Below are positions 21,799 to 39,245 of a DNA stretch of 64,000 bases, piece by piece. Position 1 is the first letter of the stretch. The number at the start of each line of letters is the position of its first letter. The notes below the pieces were generated by a model. The model saw only the letters and a list, made by a program, of their open reading frames with translations. It was not told the origin of the DNA and did not search any database. Origin of the DNA: Brevundimonas lenta (lineage in GTDB: Bacteria; Pseudomonadota; Alphaproteobacteria; Caulobacterales; Caulobacteraceae); NCBI RefSeq assembly GCF_014196335.1, contig NZ_JACIDM010000002.1, positions 186,001-250,000 of the forward strand, written 5' to 3'. A program made the translations under genes and the position numbers.

Positions 21799-21823
21799 GA
21801 CAAGCACATGCTACGCGGCGAGA

Positions 21824-22899
21824 TCAGCCGCCGCCCTGGGCCTCGGCCATCTTCGCAATCGCGTCGTCGATGGTGAAGGTGTTGGGCTTCTGGATCGGCG
21901 GGAAGTCCTTGAACGTGTCGGCGAACTTGCCCGCCAGACCCCACGCTCCGTACAGGAGCCTTCCCAGTTCGAGTTCTTCTCGCTGCGGAAGGGGGTCATG
22001 CCGCCGTCCGGCCAGCTGTTGCGGTGCGGGCCGTTGTCGGTCGAGTAGACCACGATGGTGTCCTCGGCCAGGCCGAGTTCGTCGAGCAGGTCGAGCATCT
22101 GACCGACGTTCTTGTCATGGTCGATCATGGTGTCGTGGTAGGGCGACTGCCAGCGGCCCGCCTGGCCCAGGCTCGACTTCTTGGTGTGCGTGAACATGTG
22201 CATGTGCGTCGTGTTCAGCCAGACGAAGAAGGGCGTATCGGCGTCGTTGGCTTCCTTGATGAAGCGGGTGGCGTGCTCGACGAACTCGTCGTCGCAGGTT
22301 TCCATCCTCTCCTTGGTCAGGGGGCCGGTTTCCTCGATCTTCTGCTTGCCCACCTTGCCCCAGCGCTCGTGGGTGGTGGTGTCGTCCTTGTCGGTGGCCC
22401 AGGAGTGGATCACGCCGCGCGGGCCGCTGTTCTTGCGGAAGTTCGGGAAGTCCTTTTCCGGATAGTAGTCGTACATCTCCGGCTCTTCCTCGGCGTTGAG
22501 GTGGTAGAGGTTGCCGAAGAACTCGTCGAAGCCGTGGTTGGTGGGCAGCATGTGGTTCAGGTCGCCGAGGTGGTTCTTGCCGAACTGCCCCGTCTTGTAG
22601 CCCTGTTCCTTGAGCAGCCCGGCGATTGTCACCACGCCCTCCGGCATGCCGACAGGCGAGGCAGGGGCGCCCACCTTCGACAACCCGGTCCGCAACACGC
22701 TCTGGCCGGTGATGAAGGACGACCGGCCGGCCGTGCAGCTCTGTTCGCCATAGCTGTCGGTGAACAGCATGCCCTCGTCGGCTATCCGGTCGATGTTGGG
22801 CGTCCGGTAGCCCATCAACCCTTTGCTATAACAGCTCAAATTACTGATCCCGATGTCATCGCCCCAGATGACGAGGATGTTGGGTTTTCCGTTTGGCAT
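21824..22899 (-). pseudogene. Arylsulfatase with internal deletion and frame change
   Basis: The first 314 codons encode a good type I sulfatase: IWGDDIG metal site, the formylglycine motif CTAGR with Cys55, GKNHLGD, and TDNGPHRNSWPDGGMTPFR. After NSNWEG (311-314) the family normally continues for some 190 further residues. Here the DNA jumps at about 21958 straight to what is, in a different frame, the normal family C-terminus (GKFADTFKDFPPIQKPNTF...), ending at a TGA at 21824-21826. The read-through frame instead gives an Arg/Ser-rich nonsense tail ending at 21811. This is therefore an internal deletion of roughly 550-600 bp that also shifts frame. No signal peptide. The promoter element (22955) and terminator remain. 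A shortened enzyme would lack part of the sulfatase fold and is unlikely to work. Confidence 0.8.
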
Positions 22900-23689: not shown

Positions 23690-24658
23690 TCAGTCGCGGA
23701 TCACCACGCGGAAACCCACGTGCGACGCGCCGGAGTCCTCGGCCTGGGCGTGCCGCGCGGCCGGCCGGTAGCGGCGGCAGTAGTTGGGGGCGCACAGGTG
23801 CGAGCCGCCCTTCAGCACGCGCCGCGGAATCTTCAGATGCGCCGCCGCCGGGTCGTAGCTCATCGTCGCGCATCCGCCCTGCGGGTTCTTCGCCGCGCAG
23901 CAGGCGCTGGTCGGCGCCTTCGGATTGGTCGCCGACCAGAAGTCGCGGGTCCACTCCCAGGTGTTCCCGATCATATCGTACAGGCCGTAGCCGTTCGGCG
24001 GATACGTGCCGACCGGCGACGTCCTCGGCCAGCCGTCCTCCGTGTAGTTGAAGATCGGGAAGGGGCCCTGCCAGACGTTGGCCATATGTTTGCCGTCCGG
24101 CGTCAGCTCTTCGCCCCAGGCGTAGGCCGCGCCGTCCAGACCGCCGCGCGACGCCAGCTCCCATTCCGCCTCGGTGGGCAGGTCCGCGCCCGCCCACAGG
24201 GCATAGGCCGCCACATCCTCCCAGGCGACGTGGACCACCGGGTGATCGTCCAACCCCTCCAGCGAGCTTCTCGGTCCGGCGGGGTGTCGCCAGTCGGCGC
24301 CGGCGATGTAGTGCCACCATTCGCCGTCCCGCAGCGGCTGCCCCCTCGGCGGTTGCACGAAGACGATCGACGACGGCCCAAGCAGGGCGGGATCGACGCC
24401 GGGGTACAGCGCCGGGTCGACGGGGCGTTCGGACACGGTCTTCCAGCCGGTCGCCTCGACGAAGGCCCTGAACTGCCGGTTCGTCACCGGATGGCTGTCG
24501 ATCCAGAAGCCGTCCACCTGCACGGACCGTGCCGGGGCCTCCTCGGGATAGTGCTCGTCAGAACCCATCCGGAAGGTCGCGCCCTCGATCCGGATCATGC
24601 CCGGCCTTACGGGGGCGCCTTCCGGCGACTTTTCCTTCACGCCCGTCTGCACCGTCAT
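23690..24658 (-). CDS. Formylglycine-generating enzyme (SUMF1/FGE family)
   Basis: Oxidises the active-site Cys of type I sulfatases to formylglycine. The 322-residue protein has the FGE-sulfatase fold pattern: FRMGSDEHYPEEAPARSVQVDGFWID, VTNRQFRAFVEATGW, PVVHVAWEDVAAYA-WAG, LPTEAEWE, and GNTWEWTRDF. Near the C-terminus GGSHLCAPNYCRRYRPAARH carries both copper-binding/catalytic cysteines of true aerobic FGEs (Cys289, Cys294). The start MTVQTG has GGAGG seven bases upstream and is 53 bases from regulatory element 7; an in-frame ATG at 24691 lies too close to that element. The only sulfatase in the window, two genes away, is broken, so targets must be elsewhere if it is still used. Confidence 0.92.
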   Translation of the reverse strand: MTVQTGVKEKSPEGAPVRPGMIRIEGATFRMGSDEHYPEEAPARSVQVDGFWIDSHPVTNRQFRAFVEATGWKTVSERPVDPALYPGVDPALLGPSSIVFVQPPRGQPLRDGEWWHYIAGADWRHPAGPRSSLEGLDDHPVVHVAWEDVAAYALWAGADLPTEAEWELASRGGLDGAAYAWGEELTPDGKHMANVWQGPFPIFNYTEDGWPRTSPVGTYPPNGYGLYDMIGNTWEWTRDFWSATNPKAPTSACCAAKNPQGGCATMSYDPAAAHLKIPRRVLKGGSHLCAPNYCRRYRPAARHAQAEDSGASHVGFRVVIRD

Positions 24659-24711
24659 GCCTCGCCTCCGTGTCAGATACGGATTTGGCATCCCGTCCCA
24701 CGGGGGCGCTA

Positions 24712-24727
24712 TCAGGCGTTACCCTGG
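24712..24727 (-). promoter_or_regulatory. Palindromic regulatory element 7 (FGE)
   Basis: In gene direction CCAGGGTAACGCCTGA, then T, 53 bases before the chosen FGE ATG. CCAGGG and the CCTGA half match the sulfatase copy; the centre is TAAC. Confidence 0.55.
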
Positions 24728-24744: not shown

Positions 24745-24777
24745 GAAAAAGGCGGCCCCGCAGGAGAACGGGGCCGC
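24745..24777 (-). terminator. Intrinsic terminator of the candidate small RNA
   Basis: On the minus strand a perfect nine-base stem GCGGCCCCG/CGGGGCCGC encloses TTCTCCTG and is followed by CTTTTT. It lies upstream of the FGE element and promoter, so it cannot belong to FGE. It must end a transcript that starts within the preceding 100-130 bases or reads through from further upstream. Confidence 0.85.
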
Positions 24778-24845
24778 GTGAGTTTCGCCACGGGAGGTCA
24801 TGGAGCCGGAGGAATAGCTCCCGGTCCGAAAAGCGGACTTTCAAC
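24745..24845 (-). ncRNA. Candidate regulatory small RNA with CU-rich anti-SD segments
   Basis: Between regulatory element 8 and the terminator lies a transcript-sized segment with no credible gene. Predicted structure from the 5' side: hairpin GTCCG-CTTTT-CGGAC (24824-24838), then hairpin GGAGC/GCTCC (24802-24821) whose loop shows TTCCTCC, an unpaired stretch with ACCTCCC (24792-24798), then the terminator whose loop shows TCTCCT. Three accessible CU-rich stretches are complementary to GGAGG Shine-Dalgarno sequences. The 5' end is estimated by analogy with element-to-start distances elsewhere and may be off by 10-15 bases. A 41-codon frame (ATG at 24847) crosses the region but has no SD and reads through the terminator. 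Expression is unproven. Confidence 0.5.
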
Positions 24846-24871
24846 ATGGCGGGGAGGCGAGGGCGGGACGA

Positions 24872-24887
24872 TCAGGCGAAACCCCGA
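24872..24887 (-). promoter_or_regulatory. Palindromic regulatory element 8 (candidate small RNA)
   Basis: In minus-strand direction TCGGGGTTTCGCCTGA, then T; 15 of 16 bases match the best form. It points toward the terminator-bounded segment rather than any ORF. Confidence 0.65.
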
Positions 24888-25080: not shown

Positions 25081-26481
25081 TTACAATGGCGCCATCCAGT
25101 CCCTTCCGATATCGGGCAGATGCCCTGGGGCGGAATGGGGGGCGCCTGACCCTACCCCTACGGATTCGCTCAGGCGTTTCCGGTGCGGCCTCCGGTCTCC
25201 GGCCGTGACACGCCTTAGGGGCGGGGGAGTCCACCGGCCGTCGAGGACCGTCGCTCCCGGCTGCCAGGTCCGCAAAATCAGCCGGAAACGCCCTGCTGGC
25301 GCGGGCACCCAGTTTGCGCCGGCCGGTCCGGTCGGGCGCTGCGTCTGGATCCGGACATCCAGCGATCCATCCGGGTTGAAGCGGAGGGGGTCGCGACTGG
25401 ACAGGCCGACCTGATCGCCCGCGCCCGCCGCGGGAAGGTGTCCCTTTTCATCGTAGGCCGCCATCGACCAGAAGGCGCCGACGGGCGGCATCCCCTTGGG
25501 CTCGAAATGAAGGTGGTATCCGGTCTCGCCGTTAAGCGCCGCTCCGGCGGCGTCCTCGCACGCTGTGTAGTAGACGGCGTCGTCGCGCAGATTGAATCCG
25601 AAGCCGCGGCGGATGATGGCGGCGCGCTCCAGCGGGCTCAGTCGCCCTCCGCCGGGACGGGACAGCCTGTTCCAGTGATCGGAGCCCGGCGCTTCCGGCC
25701 ATGCGGACTCGGAGATGCTGTTGTGCGCGGCCGCCACGCCCTCGCGCACGCTGGCCGCCACATCCGCAGGGAGGTCGTCCAGCCGGAACGGCCTTGAGCC
25801 GCTGACGCCCAGCCGGGCCAGGCGGCGGCCCAGGGCGCTGCGGAACACCCCGGGCGGATGGCGGGTCATCAGGGCGGCCAGCCGGTCCAGGAAGTCCTCG
25901 GCGTCCGGCGGCTCCACCGACGCCGGCCATGGCTCCCACTCGGCCTCGGGCGCGTCCGCCACCATCCCGCTGCGCAGGCATTTCGGGGTCAGGAAATAGT
26001 CGTTCCACGGCCCGTCATCGATATCGTCCAGCGGGTCGATCAGGGTGCGCCCCAGAAGCCAGACGGCGTTGGTCGGCGCCCGGACGACGGGCAGATCGTC
26101 GGTTGAGCTGCCGCTCCATCCCGGGCCGACGACCACCAGATGCTGCGCGCCCGCGCCGCGCCGGCGCACGCCCAGCGATGCGAAGATCTCGCCCCAGGCG
26201 TCCATCATCGGCATCACAAAATGGCGAGCGCGAAGCTCGGGCAGGCTGATCACCACCGGCCCGCCCCTCAGGTCCAGCCATGCGCTTGAATAGACCACAT
26301 GCGGATTGGGAGAGCACAGGCCGACCGCCTCGCCGGGCCTCGCGTGAACGAATCTGTTGGGTCCCGCCGGATGCCGTCGGCGGGCGGAATCGAGCGTTAC
26401 GAGCGGGTAGCCGGCCAGATAGCCGTCAAAGGCGATCTCGAACGCTTCCTCGGTATCCATTGGGCGATCGGTCATGGTCAT
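25081..26481 (-). CDS. DUF1254/DUF1214 domain protein
   Basis: 466 residues. The N-terminal DUF1254 region (about 10-160) has AFDGYLAGYPLVTLDSARRRHP, PNPHVVYSSAWLDLRGGPVVISLPE and HFVMPMMDAWGEIFASLG. The C-terminal DUF1214 region (about 300-425) has NGETGYHLHFEPKGMPPVGAFWSMAAYDEKGHLP, RIQTQRPTGPAGANWVPAPAGRFRLILRTWQP and DGRWTPPPLRRV. Family members normally end about there; here some 40 residues of Arg/Gly/His-rich sequence follow, suggesting loss of the original stop. No signal peptide is obvious. Element 9 lies 53 bases upstream. These paired domains of unknown activity often accompany sulfatase and HAD genes. Confidence 0.88.
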   Translation of the reverse strand: MTMTDRPMDTEEAFEIAFDGYLAGYPLVTLDSARRRHPAGPNRFVHARPGEAVGLCSPNPHVVYSSAWLDLRGGPVVISLPELRARHFVMPMMDAWGEIFASLGVRRRGAGAQHLVVVGPGWSGSSTDDLPVVRAPTNAVWLLGRTLIDPLDDIDDGPWNDYFLTPKCLRSGMVADAPEAEWEPWPASVEPPDAEDFLDRLAALMTRHPPGVFRSALGRRLARLGVSGSRPFRLDDLPADVAASVREGVAAAHNSISESAWPEAPGSDHWNRLSRPGGGRLSPLERAAIIRRGFGFNLRDDAVYYTACEDAAGAALNGETGYHLHFEPKGMPPVGAFWSMAAYDEKGHLPAAGAGDQVGLSSRDPLRFNPDGSLDVRIQTQRPTGPAGANWVPAPAGRFRLILRTWQPGATVLDGRWTPPPLRRVTAGDRRPHRKRLSESVGVGSGAPHSAPGHLPDIGRDWMAPL

Positions 26482-26534
26482 CGCCGGCCTCCTGTCGGAC
26501 CGACGATAATCCCAGCCGCAGAGGTTCAGACCAA

Positions 26535-26550
26535 TCAGGTCGAACCCCGA
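26535..26550 (-). promoter_or_regulatory. Palindromic regulatory element 9 (DUF1254)
   Basis: In gene direction TCGGGGTTCGACCTGA, then T, 53 bases before the DUF1254 ATG, in the short gap behind the response-regulator gene. A -10-like ATTATC starts 25 bases past it. Confidence 0.65.
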
Positions 26551-26559
26551 CCAACGAGG

Positions 26560-27195
26560 TTAAGCCTGGATCAAATTGTGCTTGATGGCGAAGCGGACGA
26601 ACTCCGCCGCGGTGCGTACGCCCGCCTTGCGCATGGCCGCGGCGCGGTGGCTTTCCACCGTCTTGATGCTGATGCCCAGGCGCCGCGCGATCTGTTTGTT
26701 GCTTCCGCCCTCGGCGATCAGCTGGGCGACCTCAAGCTCCCGCAGGGTGAAGCTTTCCAGTCGGGATTTCTTCCGTTCGTGGACCGCGGCCTCCAGCAGC
26801 ATCTCCGCCACCGCGGGCGAGAAGTAGGGCCGGTGCGTCCCCAGCGCCGAGATCGCCGCCACCAGCTGCGTCTCGCCTTCCGACTTCAGCAGGTACCCGC
26901 GCGCGCCCGCCGCCAGCCCGCCGGCCACCGTCTCGTCGTCGTCGTGCATCGTGAACAGCAGCACCTCCGTAGCGGGAAGTGCGTGCCGAATCTGTCGGGT
27001 GACGGCGATGCCGTTCAGGCCGGGCAGGGACACGTCCAGGACGACCACGTTGGGCCGCTGTTCCTGCGCCATCGCAAGCACTTCGGAGCCGTGGCACGAC
27101 TCCCCGCACACCTCCCAGCCGAGGTGATTTTCAACTACATCACGAACGCCGCGTCGGACGATCTCGTGGTCGTCCGCGATCAGTACGCGTAGCAT
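26560..27195 (-). CDS. NarL/LuxR-family response regulator
   Basis: 211 residues: receiver domain 1-120 (IADDH acidic pair, phospho-acceptor Asp54 in VVVLDVSLPG, Thr in EVLLFTMHDDDE, Lys in YLLKSEGE) and a C-terminal LuxR HTH (about 145-205, LTLRELEVAQLIAEGGSNKQIARRLGISIKTVESHRAAAMRKAG). It is divergent from a HisKA_3 histidine kinase 149 bases away, a standard cognate arrangement. GAGGG lies about six bases before the ATG. It sits in the middle of the genes that carry the recurrent palindrome, which makes it the best candidate to bind it. NarL-type dimers do bind palindromic sites near -40, but this pairing is inference. Confidence 0.93.
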   Translation of the reverse strand: MLRVLIADDHEIVRRGVRDVVENHLGWEVCGESCHGSEVLAMAQEQRPNVVVLDVSLPGLNGIAVTRQIRHALPATEVLLFTMHDDDETVAGGLAAGARGYLLKSEGETQLVAAISALGTHRPYFSPAVAEMLLEAAVHERKKSRLESFTLRELEVAQLIAEGGSNKQIARRLGISIKTVESHRAAAMRKAGVRTAAEFVRFAIKHNLIQA

Positions 27196-27344: not shown

Positions 27345-28907
27345 ATGAGGTCGTCCGGATCAAACGACAATCTTCCGGTTGGGCTCATAGAAAGCCCTGT
27401 TTTTGCCACGCCGGAGCGCCGATTCGGCTTTAATGGCTTAGCTGAATACAGCAAAGCTTCCGATTTCGATTGGATTTCAGGGCTCGACGCCCCGATGGCG
27501 CTCGTCGCGGATTCCGTCAGCGGCCCCCGTTTCGCCAAGGTCAGCGACGGCCTCCTCCACACGCTTGAGTGGAGTCGCCCCGAAGTGGTCGGCCGCCGCA
27601 TGGAGGATGTGCTTCCCCTCGAGGCTCATCTGCCGCTCGAGCTGGCCTTCAACCGGATCGCCGACGGCGCCGACGTGGCCGAGGCCACCGCCACCGTCCG
27701 GGTAGCGCGGCGGCGCGCCCGTCGGATGCGGTTCCGGCTTCATCCCACGGCCTCCGGTGCGGTGGTGATCGAGGTCGCGCCGGCCACCGACCGGGCGGAT
27801 TCGACCGGATCCTGGCGTCGCGTCCTGTTCGATCACCTGAACCTGATCAGCGCCGGCACCACCTATATCTACGACCGTTCCCCATCGGTCGGACTGAAGC
27901 TCTCGGTCCTGCTCGGCTTCTCGGAGGAGGGGGCCCAGACCCGCTCCCGCCCGGCGCGCGGCCTGGTTCATCCCGACGACCTGCAACGCTTCCTCGGCCA
28001 CCGGCGCAGCCTCGCCTCCGCGCCGGACGGCCACACCTCGACGGTGACCACCCGCATGCGGCACAGCGACGGCAGCTGGCGCTGGATCGAGGTGCGCGAG
28101 CAAATCCTCAATCGCGACAGCCACGGCGCCGTGCGTCAGATCCTCGGCTTCGCCAGCGACGTCACCGAGCATCACGAACTGGCCCAGGCCACCACCCGCC
28201 TGGCCGCCGCCGTCATGAAGGCCGAGATCGACGAGCGCCGCCGCATCGCGCGCGAGCTTCACGACTCCATGGCCCAGCATCTGGTGGTCATCGACCTGAC
28301 CATGTCCCGGCTGCAGCGCGAGAGCGCCACGCCGCTGCCCGCCGATGCGGTCGAGGACATCCAGGTCGCCTTGCGCGCCGCCCATGAAGAGGTGCGGACC
28401 TTCTCCTACCTGCTGCATCCGCCGGACCTCGAACGGCTCGGCCTCGCCGGCGCGATCGGGAAATTCGCCACCGGCTTCGGCGCCCGCACGGGCCTGGACA
28501 TTCGCCTGACCATCGAGCCGATGCCGACGCTTGCGCCTGTCTCGGAACTGACGCTCTTCCGCATCGCCCAGGAAGCCCTGATGAACGTGCACCGCCACGC
28601 CCGGGCGACCACGGTCGACGCGCGACTGGTGCGGCGCGGACGCGAGATCGAGCTCGAGGTGATCGACAACGGCGTCGGCGGCAGCGCCGATCACATCGAC
28701 AAGATCCTCGCCCGCGGCGCCACCGGCGTCGGCATCCCCGGCATGAAGGCGCGGCTGGAACAGCTGGGTGGCGAACTGGTCATCGGCGCGCTGGATCGCG
28801 GCTTCCGACTGAAGGCCACCCTCCCGGTCAGCCGGGATTCGCCCTCCGAGGTCCCCGCGGGCCCCGGCGAGCGGGCATCTCCCGGCCGCCCGGACACCCG
28901 CCAGTAG
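27345..28907 (+). CDS. PAS-domain sensor histidine kinase (HisKA_3, NarX/DegS type)
   Basis: 520 residues, no membrane segments, so a cytoplasmic sensor. Two PAS-like regions: about 45-130 (DAPMALVADSVSGPRFAKVSDGLLHTLEWSRPEVVG) and about 160-285 (a PAS_3-type fold ending MRHSDGSWRWIEVREQILNRD...ILGFASDVTEHHEL). HisKA_3 follows with the phospho-His near residue 306 in ARELHDSMAQHL, then HATPase_c with FRIAQEALMNVHRHARAT (N-box), IDNGVGG (G1) and GVGIPGMKARLEQLGG (G2). The first 30 codons are richer in A+T than the rest. Cognate regulator is the divergent gene. Signal unknown. Confidence 0.92.
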   Translation: MRSSGSNDNLPVGLIESPVFATPERRFGFNGLAEYSKASDFDWISGLDAPMALVADSVSGPRFAKVSDGLLHTLEWSRPEVVGRRMEDVLPLEAHLPLELAFNRIADGADVAEATATVRVARRRARRMRFRLHPTASGAVVIEVAPATDRADSTGSWRRVLFDHLNLISAGTTYIYDRSPSVGLKLSVLLGFSEEGAQTRSRPARGLVHPDDLQRFLGHRRSLASAPDGHTSTVTTRMRHSDGSWRWIEVREQILNRDSHGAVRQILGFASDVTEHHELAQATTRLAAAVMKAEIDERRRIARELHDSMAQHLVVIDLTMSRLQRESATPLPADAVEDIQVALRAAHEEVRTFSYLLHPPDLERLGLAGAIGKFATGFGARTGLDIRLTIEPMPTLAPVSELTLFRIAQEALMNVHRHARATTVDARLVRRGREIELEVIDNGVGGSADHIDKILARGATGVGIPGMKARLEQLGGELVIGALDRGFRLKATLPVSRDSPSEVPAGPGERASPGRPDTRQ

Positions 28908-28957: not shown

Positions 28958-28973
28958 TCGGGGTTTCACCTGA
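28958..28973 (+). promoter_or_regulatory. Palindromic regulatory element 10 (amidohydrolase)
   Basis: TCGGGGTTTCACCTGA, then T, on the plus strand 78 bases before the amidohydrolase GTG. It is used here as the best form of the element. CCTGA/TCAGG arms with an eight-base gap also extend the symmetry downstream. Confidence 0.65.
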
Positions 28974-29051
28974 TACCTAAGTCAGGCTGCGCCCGGCTTC
29001 ATGCGAGCGCGGCCGTTGTTGTTCGCCGCGGCAAATGGCGGAGAGCGCACC

Positions 29052-34532: not shown

Positions 34533-37500
34533 ATGCCGACCGTCACCAGCGATTTCGTGATCGATATGAACGACTTCAGCCGCGCGCGGCTGGCTGCGGT
34601 CCTCCAGGCCGGGCAGTCGGTGTCGACGTCGGCGACGCAAGCCGTGATCAACGCGCTCGATCCCGACGGCTACGCCATCCAGTTGATCTTCACCGGCACC
34701 GGCCTCGGCGGTTTCACCGCCAGGGGCGTGCCGACCACCGGCACGATCACCGGCTTCCGCATCGAGCAATCCGGCGACCTCGTGCTGGGCCTCGCCGGGC
34801 TGTCGGTTTCGGCCAGCGCCCTGAACGCGGTCCTCGCCGGCAGCGACGACGCCGCCTTCTGGAACCTGCTGTACGGCGGGGCGGACACCATCACCGGCGC
34901 CGGGACCTGGGGCGTCGCCAACAGTCTGTACGGACACGGCGGCAACGACACCATCAACGGCGGATCCGGCGGCGACCTGCTGAGCGGCGGCGCCGGCGAC
35001 GACGTGATCACCGGCGGCGACGAAATCGATCCCAGCGGCGCCAGCTACGGCGACGGCATCGACGGCGGCGCGGGCGCCGACACCCTGCGCGGCGGCGTCG
35101 GCCGCGACGTCCTCGTCGGCGGCGATGGAGCCGATCTGATCGAGGGGGATGCCGGCAACGACATCCTGTACCACGACGGCGACGGGCTCACCTCGGGTGA
35201 AACCGTTCTCCAGCTGGGTCCGGAGTATGGCAACATGGCCATTCCGGTCCGTTTCTACCTCGCCGCAGACCGGCGGGCGGAGGACGGTTCCGTCGATACC
35301 CTGAACGGGGGCGCGGGCGACGACTTCATCTATCTGGGCGCCGGCGACTCCGCTGACGGCGGCGATGGCGCGGACTCCGTCGAGGTCAATTTCCGCGGCC
35401 GCAACAGCGCCCTCACCCTGGATATGACCGCCGGAGCCGCAGCCGCGATCACGGCGGTTGCGGGCGGGAGCTTCGCCAACGTCGAACGCTTCGACGTCGT
35501 CGGCACCCTGTTCAACGACATCATCACGGGCGGTGCTGAAAGCACCATCCTGTACGGCGAGGCGGGCGAGGACCGCATCGACGGCGGCGCAGGCAATGAC
35601 AGCATCGCCGGCAGCGCCTTCACCAACTCCAGCCGCATCGGCAACGTCTGGGGCTCCCGCTTCGACGACGGCCAGCGCGACGAACTGTTCGGCGGAGAAG
35701 GCAACGACGCCGTCAGCGTCGGCCTGCTGGACTACGCCGACGGCGGCGCCGGCGGCGACTCCCTGCTGGTCAGTCTGGATGGACTGGACGAGGGCGTCTC
35801 AATCGAATTCTCCGCCGGTTTCGAGTTTGACATCCTGGCCCTGGTGACCGGCGGGACCTACGTGAATTTCGAAACGATCTCCGCGCTTCATACGACCGAA
35901 TACCGCGACGTTATCCGCAGCATCGGGATCACCAGCATCCATACCTTCGGCGGGGATGACCTCGTTTACGCGGGCGACGCCAACAACACCGTCAGCATGG
36001 GAGACGGCGACGACGTGGCCTACGCCATGGGCGGCATCGACCTTGTGTTCGGCGGCTTCGGCGATGACCGGCTGTACGGCGGCGCGGGCTCGGACACCCT
36101 CTACGCCGACATCGACTACGACCCGAACCAGGCGGCCGGTTCGGGCGCCGACTTCCTCGACGGCGGAGAGGGGAACGACACCCTCTACGGCGGCGCGGGC
36201 GACGACGTGCTCGTCGGCGGGGCGGGCGGCGACCGGATTTACGGTGAAGGCGGGACCGACACCGTCTCCTACGACGGCTCGACCGTCGGCGTCAGCGTTC
36301 AGCGCTCGCCGAACGGCTCCGATCCGCAGACGGGGCTGCAGGCCTGGACCTATTTCGCGTCGGGCGGCGACGCCCAGGGCGACATGCTGGACGGCGTCGA
36401 GGGGATCATCGGTTCGGGACAGAACGACACCCTGACCGGCTTCGGCCGGGCCGACGGCGCCGGCGGCGCCGACACGATCGAGGGCTCCCATCTCGCGGAC
36501 ATCCTGCTGGGCGGCGCGGGCGACGACACCCTGCGCGGCCTGGACGGCGCCGACACCCTGAACGGCGGCGAAGGCAATGACATCGTCGGCTACAGTCGCA
36601 CGTCCTCGGGCGCCGGAACGGTCGGCGTCACGGTCGATCTGCGCATCCAGGGCGTGGCGCAGGACACCGGCCACGGCTCAGACACCCTGATCAGCGTCGA
36701 GGGCGTGGTCGGCAGCATCCATGCCGACGTGCTCCACGGCGACGACCAGGCCAACTACATCCAGGGCGCCGGCGACGGCAGCCTGCCGGGCTCGGGCCCC
36801 TACCAGGGCGACCAGCTGTTCGGACACGGCGGCGACGACGTTATCGTCGGCGACGGCGCGGCCGCAGGGCTCGGCTACACCCCGGGCGACGGCGTTTCCC
36901 GCGGCTACGACCTGATCTCGGGCGGCGACGGCAACGACACCATCACCGCCGGCAACGGCGCGGACGTGGTCACCGGCGACGCCGGCGACGACATCATCTT
37001 CGGCGAGTGGGACGCCGACACGCTCGACGGCGGCGCCGGAAACGACAAGATCGACGGCGGCTCGATGAACGACATCATCACCGGCGGCGACGGAAACGAT
37101 CGCCTGACCGGCGGTTCGGGCGCCGATGCGCTCGACGGCGGCGCCGGAACTGACACGGCCGTTTTCTCGGGCGTCCGTGCGGACTACGCCTTCGCCTTCC
37201 TGCCCGGCGGCGAACTGCAGATCACCGGGCCCGACGGCGTCGACGTTCTGACCAATGTCGAACGGCTGCAGTTCTCGGACGGCCTGTTCGATCCGAACGG
37301 CCACGCCCTGCCGACGGAGATCCTCGGCACCCCCAACGCCGACACGCTCAACGGCACGGCCGGCCGCGACGACATCCAGGCCGGAGCGGGCGATGACCTG
37401 ATCACCGGCGGCGGCGACAACGACACCATCGACGGCGGCGCCGGCTTCGATACGGCCGTCTTCTCCGACGGCCCGGCGGGCGTGGTTTCGAGCAACGGCG

Positions 37501-39245
37501 TGGGCGTGACCGGCCTCGACGGCTCCGACAGCCTGACGAACGTCGAACGCCTGCGCTTCGGCACGACCGACCTGCTGGTCTCGGCCCTGCTCTTCTCGAA
37601 CAGCGTCGGCAGCAGCGCCGGCGAGACCCTGATCGGAAGCTCCTCGTTCGAGGGCCTGTTCGGGCTCGGCGGCGACGACACCCTGAACGCGTTCGACGGC
37701 GACGATACGCTCGCGGGCGGCGCGGGCGTCGATGTCCTCAACGGCGGAAACGGCTTCGACACGGCGGACTACACCTCGGCCGCGGCCGGGGTCACCGCCC
37801 GTCTCGACACCATGCGCTCGACCAATGACGGTGACGGCGGCACGGACACCTTCACCTCCATTGAGGCCATCACCGGCTCCGCCTTCAACGACCTGCTCGT
37901 CGGCGGAGCGCTCGGCGACACGCTGAAGGGCGGCCTCGGCGCCGACACCCTGCTCGGCCAGGGCGGCAACGACGTCCTGTGGGGCGGCGCGGGCGCCGGC
38001 AACACCCTGCAGGGCGGCCTCGGCGACGACCGCTATGTGCTGGAGGCGCTGGACTCCGTGGTCGAGGTCGACGGCCAGGGCACGGACACGGTCGAGGCGC
38101 GCATCAACGCCTACAACCTCGCCAACAACGTCGAGAACCTGATCTACACGGGCGCCGGAAACTTCTCCGGCACCGGAAATGCGCTCAACAACGTCATGAC
38201 CGGCGGGGCGGGCGACGACCTGCTCCGCGGTCGCGGCGGCGTCGACACCCTCGTCGGCGGCGGCGGCATCGACACGGCGGACTATTCGCAGGCCGCGGCG
38301 GGCGTGCACGCCCGTCTCGACAACATGCGGGCGGTCAACGACGGGGACGGAAGCACCGACACCTTCACCTCGATCGAGGCCATCCTCGGCTCCGCCTTCA
38401 ACGACACTCTCGTCGGCGGCGCGCTCGGCGACCGCCTCAGCGGCGGTCTCGGCGCCGACACGCTGCTCGGCTTCGCGGGGAACGACATCCTCGCCGGCGG
38501 TCAGGGGCTGGCCAACCAGCTGCAGGGCGGGCTGGGCGACGATCTGTATGTGCTCGACGCCTACGACACGATCGTCGAGATCGCCGGTCAGGGCCACGAC
38601 ACCATCGAGGCTCACGTCGGGGCCCACGTCATGGCCGCCAACATCGAGGACATGTTCTACGTCGGGAACAACAAATTCTACGGCACCGGCAACGCCGGGA
38701 ACAACACCATCACCAGCGGCATCGGCGACGACATCCTCAAGGGGATGGGCGGCTCCGACCGGCTGTTCGGCGGCGCGGGATACGACGAGGTCCACGTCCG
38801 CGGAACCCAGGCCCAGTACACGGTGACCACCGAGGGCTCGGGCTGGCGCATCGTCGACACCGTCGCCGGCCGCGACGGGACCATCTACGTCGAGAGCATC
38901 GAGGCGGTGCGCTTCCTCACCGGCAACACCAAGACGGTGCTGACCTACACTCACGGCGCCGCCGCGCCGGAGCCGTCGGCCAAGGACGCCGGGCCGCTGG
39001 TCTCGCCGCTTCAGGACGACGACGCCTTCGTCCTGCCGGCCCTGGCCGACAAGGCGGGGCCGCTGGTCCTGCCCGTGCAGGACGACCTCGCCTTCGACGG
39101 CGCGGACGCCGGCGGCGGTATGGAGACCGGCTTCACCGGCTTCCACGGCTTCGGCGACGCGCCGCTGTTCATCGGCGGGATGTTCGGACCGCACATCGAT
39201 GACCACAGCTTCGACGCCGGCTCGATGCGCGACTGGATCGTCTGA
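34533..39245 (+). CDS. Large RTX calcium-binding protein (about 1570 residues)
   Basis: Putative type I secreted, calcium-folded protein. Residues 1-125 form a non-repeat N-domain (MPTVTSDFVIDMNDFSRARLAAVLQAG). After it come many clusters of GGxGxDxLx nonapeptides separated by beta-rich linkers such as FVxVERLQFSDG and GVTARLDTMRSTNDGDGGTDTFTSIEAI. Two near-duplicate modules occupy about 1080-1420. The end module (VRGTQAQYTVTTEGSGWRIVDTVAGRDGT) matches the end of the RTX gene at the left edge. The tail repeats AGPLV-P-QDD-AF twice, then ends GSMRDWIV. GGGGGA precedes the ATG. No catalytic domain was seen; adhesin, S-layer-like or matrix roles are possible. Confidence 0.92.
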   Translation: MPTVTSDFVIDMNDFSRARLAAVLQAGQSVSTSATQAVINALDPDGYAIQLIFTGTGLGGFTARGVPTTGTITGFRIEQSGDLVLGLAGLSVSASALNAVLAGSDDAAFWNLLYGGADTITGAGTWGVANSLYGHGGNDTINGGSGGDLLSGGAGDDVITGGDEIDPSGASYGDGIDGGAGADTLRGGVGRDVLVGGDGADLIEGDAGNDILYHDGDGLTSGETVLQLGPEYGNMAIPVRFYLAADRRAEDGSVDTLNGGAGDDFIYLGAGDSADGGDGADSVEVNFRGRNSALTLDMTAGAAAAITAVAGGSFANVERFDVVGTLFNDIITGGAESTILYGEAGEDRIDGGAGNDSIAGSAFTNSSRIGNVWGSRFDDGQRDELFGGEGNDAVSVGLLDYADGGAGGDSLLVSLDGLDEGVSIEFSAGFEFDILALVTGGTYVNFETISALHTTEYRDVIRSIGITSIHTFGGDDLVYAGDANNTVSMGDGDDVAYAMGGIDLVFGGFGDDRLYGGAGSDTLYADIDYDPNQAAGSGADFLDGGEGNDTLYGGAGDDVLVGGAGGDRIYGEGGTDTVSYDGSTVGVSVQRSPNGSDPQTGLQAWTYFASGGDAQGDMLDGVEGIIGSGQNDTLTGFGRADGAGGADTIEGSHLADILLGGAGDDTLRGLDGADTLNGGEGNDIVGYSRTSSGAGTVGVTVDLRIQGVAQDTGHGSDTLISVEGVVGSIHADVLHGDDQANYIQGAGDGSLPGSGPYQGDQLFGHGGDDVIVGDGAAAGLGYTPGDGVSRGYDLISGGDGNDTITAGNGADVVTGDAGDDIIFGEWDADTLDGGAGNDKIDGGSMNDIITGGDGNDRLTGGSGADALDGGAGTDTAVFSGVRADYAFAFLPGGELQITGPDGVDVLTNVERLQFSDGLFDPNGHALPTEILGTPNADTLNGTAGRDDIQAGAGDDLITGGGDNDTIDGGAGFDTAVFSDGPAGVVSSNGVGVTGLDGSDSLTNVERLRFGTTDLLVSALLFSNSVGSSAGETLIGSSSFEGLFGLGGDDTLNAFDGDDTLAGGAGVDVLNGGNGFDTADYTSAAAGVTARLDTMRSTNDGDGGTDTFTSIEAITGSAFNDLLVGGALGDTLKGGLGADTLLGQGGNDVLWGGAGAGNTLQGGLGDDRYVLEALDSVVEVDGQGTDTVEARINAYNLANNVENLIYTGAGNFSGTGNALNNVMTGGAGDDLLRGRGGVDTLVGGGGIDTADYSQAAAGVHARLDNMRAVNDGDGSTDTFTSIEAILGSAFNDTLVGGALGDRLSGGLGADTLLGFAGNDILAGGQGLANQLQGGLGDDLYVLDAYDTIVEIAGQGHDTIEAHVGAHVMAANIEDMFYVGNNKFYGTGNAGNNTITSGIGDDILKGMGGSDRLFGGAGYDEVHVRGTQAQYTVTTEGSGWRIVDTVAGRDGTIYVESIEAVRFLTGNTKTVLTYTHGAAAPEPSAKDAGPLVSPLQDDDAFVLPALADKAGPLVLPVQDDLAFDGADAGGGMETGFTGFHGFGDAPLFIGGMFGPHIDDHSFDAGSMRDWIV

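Follow-up and report, generated by a model that had tools for sequence, protein, structure and literature searches.

The window analysed here is a stretch of 64,000 nucleotides (nt) from Brevundimonas lenta (contig NZ_JACIDM010000002.1, positions 186,001-250,000; G000:C2:186001-250000), and the feature of interest is a segment of its minus strand, 24838-24746, that appears to encode a small RNA (sRNA) of about 93 nt controlled by a two-component system (TCS). In its neighbourhood lie a HAD gene, a sulfatase, an FGE-like gene, a DUF1254/DUF1214 gene, and genes for a NarL/FixJ-type response regulator and a PAS/HisKA_3 kinase. The segment is preceded by the regulator element GGGGTTTCGCCTGAT (24871-24885, minus strand; element 8). 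No gene is found between this element and an intrinsic terminator, GCGGCCCCG-TTCTCCTG-CGGGGCCGC-CTTTTT (24777-24746, minus strand), which starts 108 nt from the start of the element and 93 nt past its end. The next gene on the same strand beyond the terminator is FGE, which has an element of its own. A preliminary description of the locus had already stated that element 8 leads to no open reading frame (ORF) and that a strong terminator precedes the FGE promoter, and both statements are borne out; of its perfect stem of nine GC base pairs (bp) followed by CTTTTT the terminator stands, with a stem of ten pairs, nine of them G-C, and loop TTCTCCTG.

The element occurs far more often than expected, with eight matches in the window at up to three mismatches (2.24 expected; no shuffle reaches eight) and 38 matches genome-wide at up to two mismatches, against four for the reversed pattern. 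When 41 occurrences preceding a gene, from the same genome and relatives, were aligned on the element, a second signal emerged at a fixed distance. Offset 38 is A in 25/41 and offset 42 is T in 37/41, which corresponds to the second and sixth letters of a -10 hexamer located 22 nt after the element. Downstream of element 8 this hexamer is CATGTT (24848-24843, minus strand), with both the A and the T present. Its spacing places the predicted start near 24838 (within 24836-24839) and gives an RNA of 93 nt. This promoter ranks as the fourth-best full promoter within the window; a scan for the sigma-70 consensus gave no match, as expected for an activator-dependent promoter.

A search of 390 Caulobacteraceae genomes with the full promoter pattern, GGGTTTSRCCYGAT-N23-ANNNT, yielded 52 sites in 24 of them, and none with the reversed pattern. 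Of the 26 genomes that encode a close homologue of the regulator, 19 have the pattern, against only 5 of the 364 others (Fisher 3e-22). Among these five, three belong to Caulobacter and contain the conserved RNA treated further on; at the Caulobacter loci examined this RNA adjoins a 43%-identical regulator. As the pattern thus tracks the regulator, this NarL/FixJ-type regulator family very probably binds at the element, with RGGGTTTSRCCYGAT as the presumed protected sequence. The suggestion in the preliminary description that a TCS controls the locus is supported by this association, together with ORF-less units under the same element in Phenylobacterium and Caulobacter.

In the minimum free energy (MFE) fold the predicted 93-nt RNA begins with a hairpin GUCCG-CUUUU-CGGAC (24838-24824), followed by a second, GGAGCU-AUUCCUCC-GGCUCC (24821-24802), which exposes the loop AUUCCUCC at 24815-24808. 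Then come the linker AUGACCUCCC, in which the segment ACCUCCC (24798-24792) is mostly unpaired, a weak third hairpin and the terminator (MFE -41.4, z -3.6, 0/200 shuffles). When the 5' end is made longer or shorter, ACCUCCC pairs otherwise.

The arrangement is retained in Brevundimonas sp. Root1279 (L044/L113), the nearest relative with the same regulator (90% identical), where DUF1254, the element, 108 nt, the terminator, a further element and FGE follow each other in the same order, with TATCTT as the -10 hexamer. At the place aligned with the hairpin 2 loop Root1279 has CAUCCUCCUCCUGAU, and its loop carries UCCUCCUCCU. Among the occurrences of the element in regulator loci, five distinct genomes have an intrinsic terminator that starts at a similar distance: +108 in both the window and Root1279, +110 in Phenylobacterium J367, +128 in a Caulobacteraceae metagenome-assembled genome (MAG) and +122 in genome G019. 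Given 0.22 intergenic terminators per strand-kb, chance would place 0.07 in this position across ten orphan elements. The cassettes of Phenylobacterium J367 and the MAG lie directly downstream of the kinase, and that of G019 (L100 4523), with a good terminator and a poor -10, was counted as weak. A DNA search with the segment in 131 genomes of the genus returned, outside its own genome, only terminator-like or element-like fragments, and the RNA body could not be aligned beyond Root1279.

Further ORF-less elements were observed in Phenylobacterium (L106 11206, minus strand; L114 6704 and L049 4973, plus strand), the latter two just behind the regulator gene. They are followed by C-rich segments and long 3' hairpins lacking a T tract, and are possible further members.

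Well-conserved RNAs under this element were found in Caulobacter. The promoter search revealed an ORF-less conserved segment right under the element in eight Caulobacter genomes, and a covariance model extended this to 17 RNAs in nine Caulobacter genomes (loci L174-L190, e.g. L155 14767-14910 and L187 1501-1644, both minus strand), with no match in the rest of the 390 genomes. Two siblings are present in eight of the nine, and one sibling lies 3' of a regulator-kinase operon. All 17 follow the element, or a sequence only slightly different from it, without a gap, with AATCT, ACTCT or AACCT as -10. In their fold a closing stem encloses two hairpins whose loops, UCACCCCCGAUUU and UCAUCCCCCAAG, are rich in C, and a 12-bp hairpin with the invariant apical sequence UGUCCCGACGCA comes next. 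It is supported by strong covariation (pairing in 92.9% of cells and 15 pairs with both partners changed, a level reached by 0/500 shuffles), slid controls being far lower, and the RNAs match no Rfam family. They are good evidence for noncoding-RNA control by this signalling system, though not for homology with the RNA at 24838-24746.

A second structured RNA, unit 1, was overlooked in the preliminary description. It lies right after the DUF1254 stop (25083-24949, minus strand; L113 1918-2054 in Root1279) and is better conserved than the RNA at 24838-24746. In both species a 12-bp stem closes it, the loop reads UCGCCCCCCGA without any difference, and a long hairpin (12 bp in the window) stands at the 3' side, with seven pairs changed on both sides and fold z-scores of -4.3 (window) and -4.1 (Root1279). 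The Root1279 copy has an element-like promoter, CGGGATAGGCCTGAT / TAGACT. In the window this element is degraded, and unit 1 may therefore be a 3' untranslated region product there. Among the models R1 and R2 of the Caulobacter RNAs and R3 of unit 1, the one significant match across genera was that of R2 to unit 1 of Root1279 (L113:1928-2055, 21.3 bits, E 0.019). Brevundimonas, like Caulobacter, may thus carry a pair of RNAs.

The promoter, the terminator, the absence of a gene, the synteny with Root1279, the link between regulator and element and the similar units elsewhere, all read from the DNA, make it likely that 24838-24746 is the gene of an sRNA controlled by the TCS regulator. We infer its transcription, the sign of the regulation, the pairing and the targets from these features as follows. 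The gene would belong to the regulon of the adjacent HisKA_3 kinase and NarL-type regulator, and the regulator, once phosphorylated, would bind the element and activate transcription from the -10 hexamer 22 nt downstream, as it would for DUF1254, FGE, the sulfatase and the lipoproteins. Transcription would halt at the GC-rich terminator, leaving an RNA of about 93 nt whose exposed pyrimidine loops (AUUCCUCC, ACCUCCC) would most likely base-pair in trans with the G-rich ribosome-binding regions of mRNAs and reduce their translation. As a whole, this combination of a regulon sRNA with loop pairing is the best explanation, and a fairly probable one. Repression by the covering of ribosome-binding sites, taken by itself, is the best single mechanism, with the balance between it and all others about level.

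Such a mechanism is reasonable in view of known alphaproteobacterial RNAs. NfeR1 of Sinorhizobium, which blocks ribosome binding of ntrB, and its alphar14 'cuckoo' relatives are likewise short, terminator-ended RNAs with several unpaired anti-Shine-Dalgarno stretches (PMC10746234). They carry an identical CCUCCUCCC in three hairpin loops, whereas the predicted sRNA has UUCCUCC and ACCUCCC, a different promoter and no Rfam match; RF02344 gave no match in the window and a weak one of 16.8 bits in Root1279. The alphaR8 RNAs (SisA-D of Caulobacter, MmgR) are similar in having a hairpin, a single-stranded UUUCCUCCCU and a terminator, and SisA-D represses many mRNAs (PMC12559287). Compared with an alphaR8 (RF00519) cut-off of 41 bits and the UUUCCUCCCU core, the predicted sRNA reaches 15 bits, rank 20 in its genome. 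The genuine alphaR8 of this genome (SisA/MmgR-type) is located at C1:53908-53986 (minus strand; 63 bits to RF00519), with a weaker copy at C3:166146 (32 bits).

TCS control has a precedent in ChvR of Caulobacter crescentus, a TCS-switched sRNA of 84 nt with a narrow range of conservation (PMC6237742); the likeness is one of description, and ChvR is under ChvI rather than a NarL-type regulator. The locus shares the sequence-level properties of a TCS-activated, trans-acting sRNA, i.e. a promoter of its own under a response-regulator site, no ORF and an intrinsic terminator. GsrN, kept in Caulobacter, Brevundimonas and Phenylobacterium, exposes a C-rich loop and pairs six tandem C with G-rich sites, on katG outside Shine-Dalgarno sites (PMC5869019). 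In this it resembles unit 1 and the Caulobacter RNAs. Judged by description rather than by direct homology, the predicted sRNA differs from GsrN, with its C6 in the 5' loop, EcfG promoter and stress-response locus: it lacks six tandem C, is preceded by the NarL-type element and adjoins another TCS.

The likeness to known CU-rich alphaproteobacterial sRNAs claimed in the preliminary description did not hold at family level. At curated Rfam thresholds the window contains only a tRNA. The scores of the segment, 21.9 bits for alphar15 (RF02345; cut-off 40; E 0.012 in a 201-base search, and absent from a genome-wide search up to E 10) and 19.8 bits for CcsR1 (RF02791; cut-off 65.3; CCUCCUCCC motifs absent), are weak full-length matches that agree with the general shape of the predicted sRNA and fail the cut-offs. 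Matches by E-value in the units of relatives (Burkholderia ncS54 etc.) were discarded, being driven by the GC terminator hairpin.

Several observations weigh against the proposed sRNA or its mode of action. Its two hairpins and linker fold as originally described, but the z-score comes almost wholly from the terminator, and the body alone (z -1.0) has no significant fold. The two-species alignment of the body with Root1279 shows no clear consensus and no convincing covariation, and models R1, R2 and R3 do not recognise the segment. The anti-Shine-Dalgarno stretches are present, but their role as functional seeds is not established: an accessible match as long occurs in 24.5% of dinucleotide shuffles of the window RNA and in 6.5% for Root1279 (marginal), so that the stretches are no more than a C-rich composition yields and the motif alone is no evidence, and the exposed loops of the Phenylobacterium and Caulobacter type A units are CCCCC, not CCUCC. 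A genome-wide target search with the complement of the loop, proposed at the outset as a check, gave 28 sites, no excess over the 23 of a reversed control. Among them, the ribosome-binding site GGAGGAATAG, immediately upstream of the start codon (ATG) for a 308-residue membrane protein (C2:432616-432626, minus strand; L207), offers 10 nt of perfect complementarity; a single such site is about the chance expectation, and it is kept only as a lead to a possible target. Finally, element and terminator could partly serve the neighbouring genes.

In an unlikely alternative the terminator ends the DUF1254 message, element 8 is a duplicate or relic of the FGE promoter, and any short RNA is without function. 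The rapid divergence of the RNA body fits this, as does the DUF1254 stop, which is on the same strand and only about 300 nt upstream. However, the DUF1254 stop has a 12-bp hairpin of its own behind it, the element, the -10 and the 108-nt spacing are kept in Root1279, and Phenylobacterium, the MAG and Caulobacter have similar cassettes in unrelated places. The position of the terminator, which separates element 8 from a codirectional FGE, would also suit an attenuating 5' leader of FGE that is read through conditionally. This is quite improbable, as FGE has its own element and promoter past the terminator in both species, cassettes elsewhere lack a codirectional gene next to them (in G334 the next gene is convergent), and the folds contain no anti-terminator pairing, although no separate search for such pairing was made.

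A small protein has next to no probability. A frame of about 41-42 codons does exist, but its ATG (24847), the only ORF start between element 8 and the terminator, forms part of the predicted -10. It lies upstream of the predicted start, so that the frame should be absent from this transcript; it has no Shine-Dalgarno sequence and extends across the terminator. No similar small frame stands by itself in the Root1279 unit, where the sole long frame starts upstream of the predicted start and continues into FGE. The main alternative to Shine-Dalgarno blocking leaves the sRNA in place and changes its route, with C-rich loops binding G-tracts away from Shine-Dalgarno sites, in the manner of GsrN and katG, or with the RNA serving as a sponge for another RNA. 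The GsrN precedent (PMC5869019) and the CCCCC loops exposed in the Caulobacter and Phenylobacterium units and in unit 1 speak for it, the CCUCC of the predicted sRNA against it, and we consider it a minority possibility.

If the regulon sRNA with Shine-Dalgarno pairing is correct, an uncharacterised TCS with a clear DNA element gains an activating arm, at gene promoters, and a repressing arm, the sRNA. Such double arms are known from ChvI-ChvR, ChvI being an OmpR-type regulator, and from EnvZ-OmpR/OmrAB. The wider pattern, in which three genera have orphan and often paired RNAs under a single two-component promoter, is of more interest than the one sRNA. It may or may not be, with equal plausibility, that this NarL-type regulon of the Caulobacteraceae (sulfatase, FGE, DUF1254, lipoproteins) has built-in, often paired sibling sRNAs, the RNA arm being kept while its seeds (CCUCC/CCCCC) changed or were re-invented. 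The Caulobacter RNAs, well conserved and with siblings in most genomes, are testable in tractable hosts, and comparison across genera would show the speed of sRNA seed turnover under a constant promoter. A literature search on DUF1254/sulfatase regulons found nothing.

As to the surrounding genes, the FGE-like sulfatase-modifying factor gene (23690-24691, minus strand; PF03781, E 5e-78) probably starts at ATG 24661, preceded by GGAGG. Its separate element (24711-24725, minus strand) lies 3' of the terminator, in the same order as in Root1279 (L113 2264). The DUF1254/DUF1214 gene (25081-26481, minus strand) has its own element at 26534-26548. The response regulator (26560-27195, minus strand) is the presumed activator on the basis of its family assignment and its co-occurrence with the element, and the PAS/HisKA_3 kinase (27345-28907, plus strand) its presumed partner by domain assignment. 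The sulfatase frame (21811-22899, minus strand; 362 residues) matches relatives over residues 1-315 only, followed by an unrelated tail, and is probably frameshifted, naturally or by sequencing; the Root1279 protein has 512 residues. A near-consensus element at 28960-28974 (plus strand) lies about 180 nt upstream of the closest good start codon, that of a Tat-signal protein (RRGFIAGATG), an unusually long leader. Positions 1-1500 and 34900-38800 of the window encode large proteins built of repeats, glycine/aspartate-rich nonapeptides of RTX-like type.
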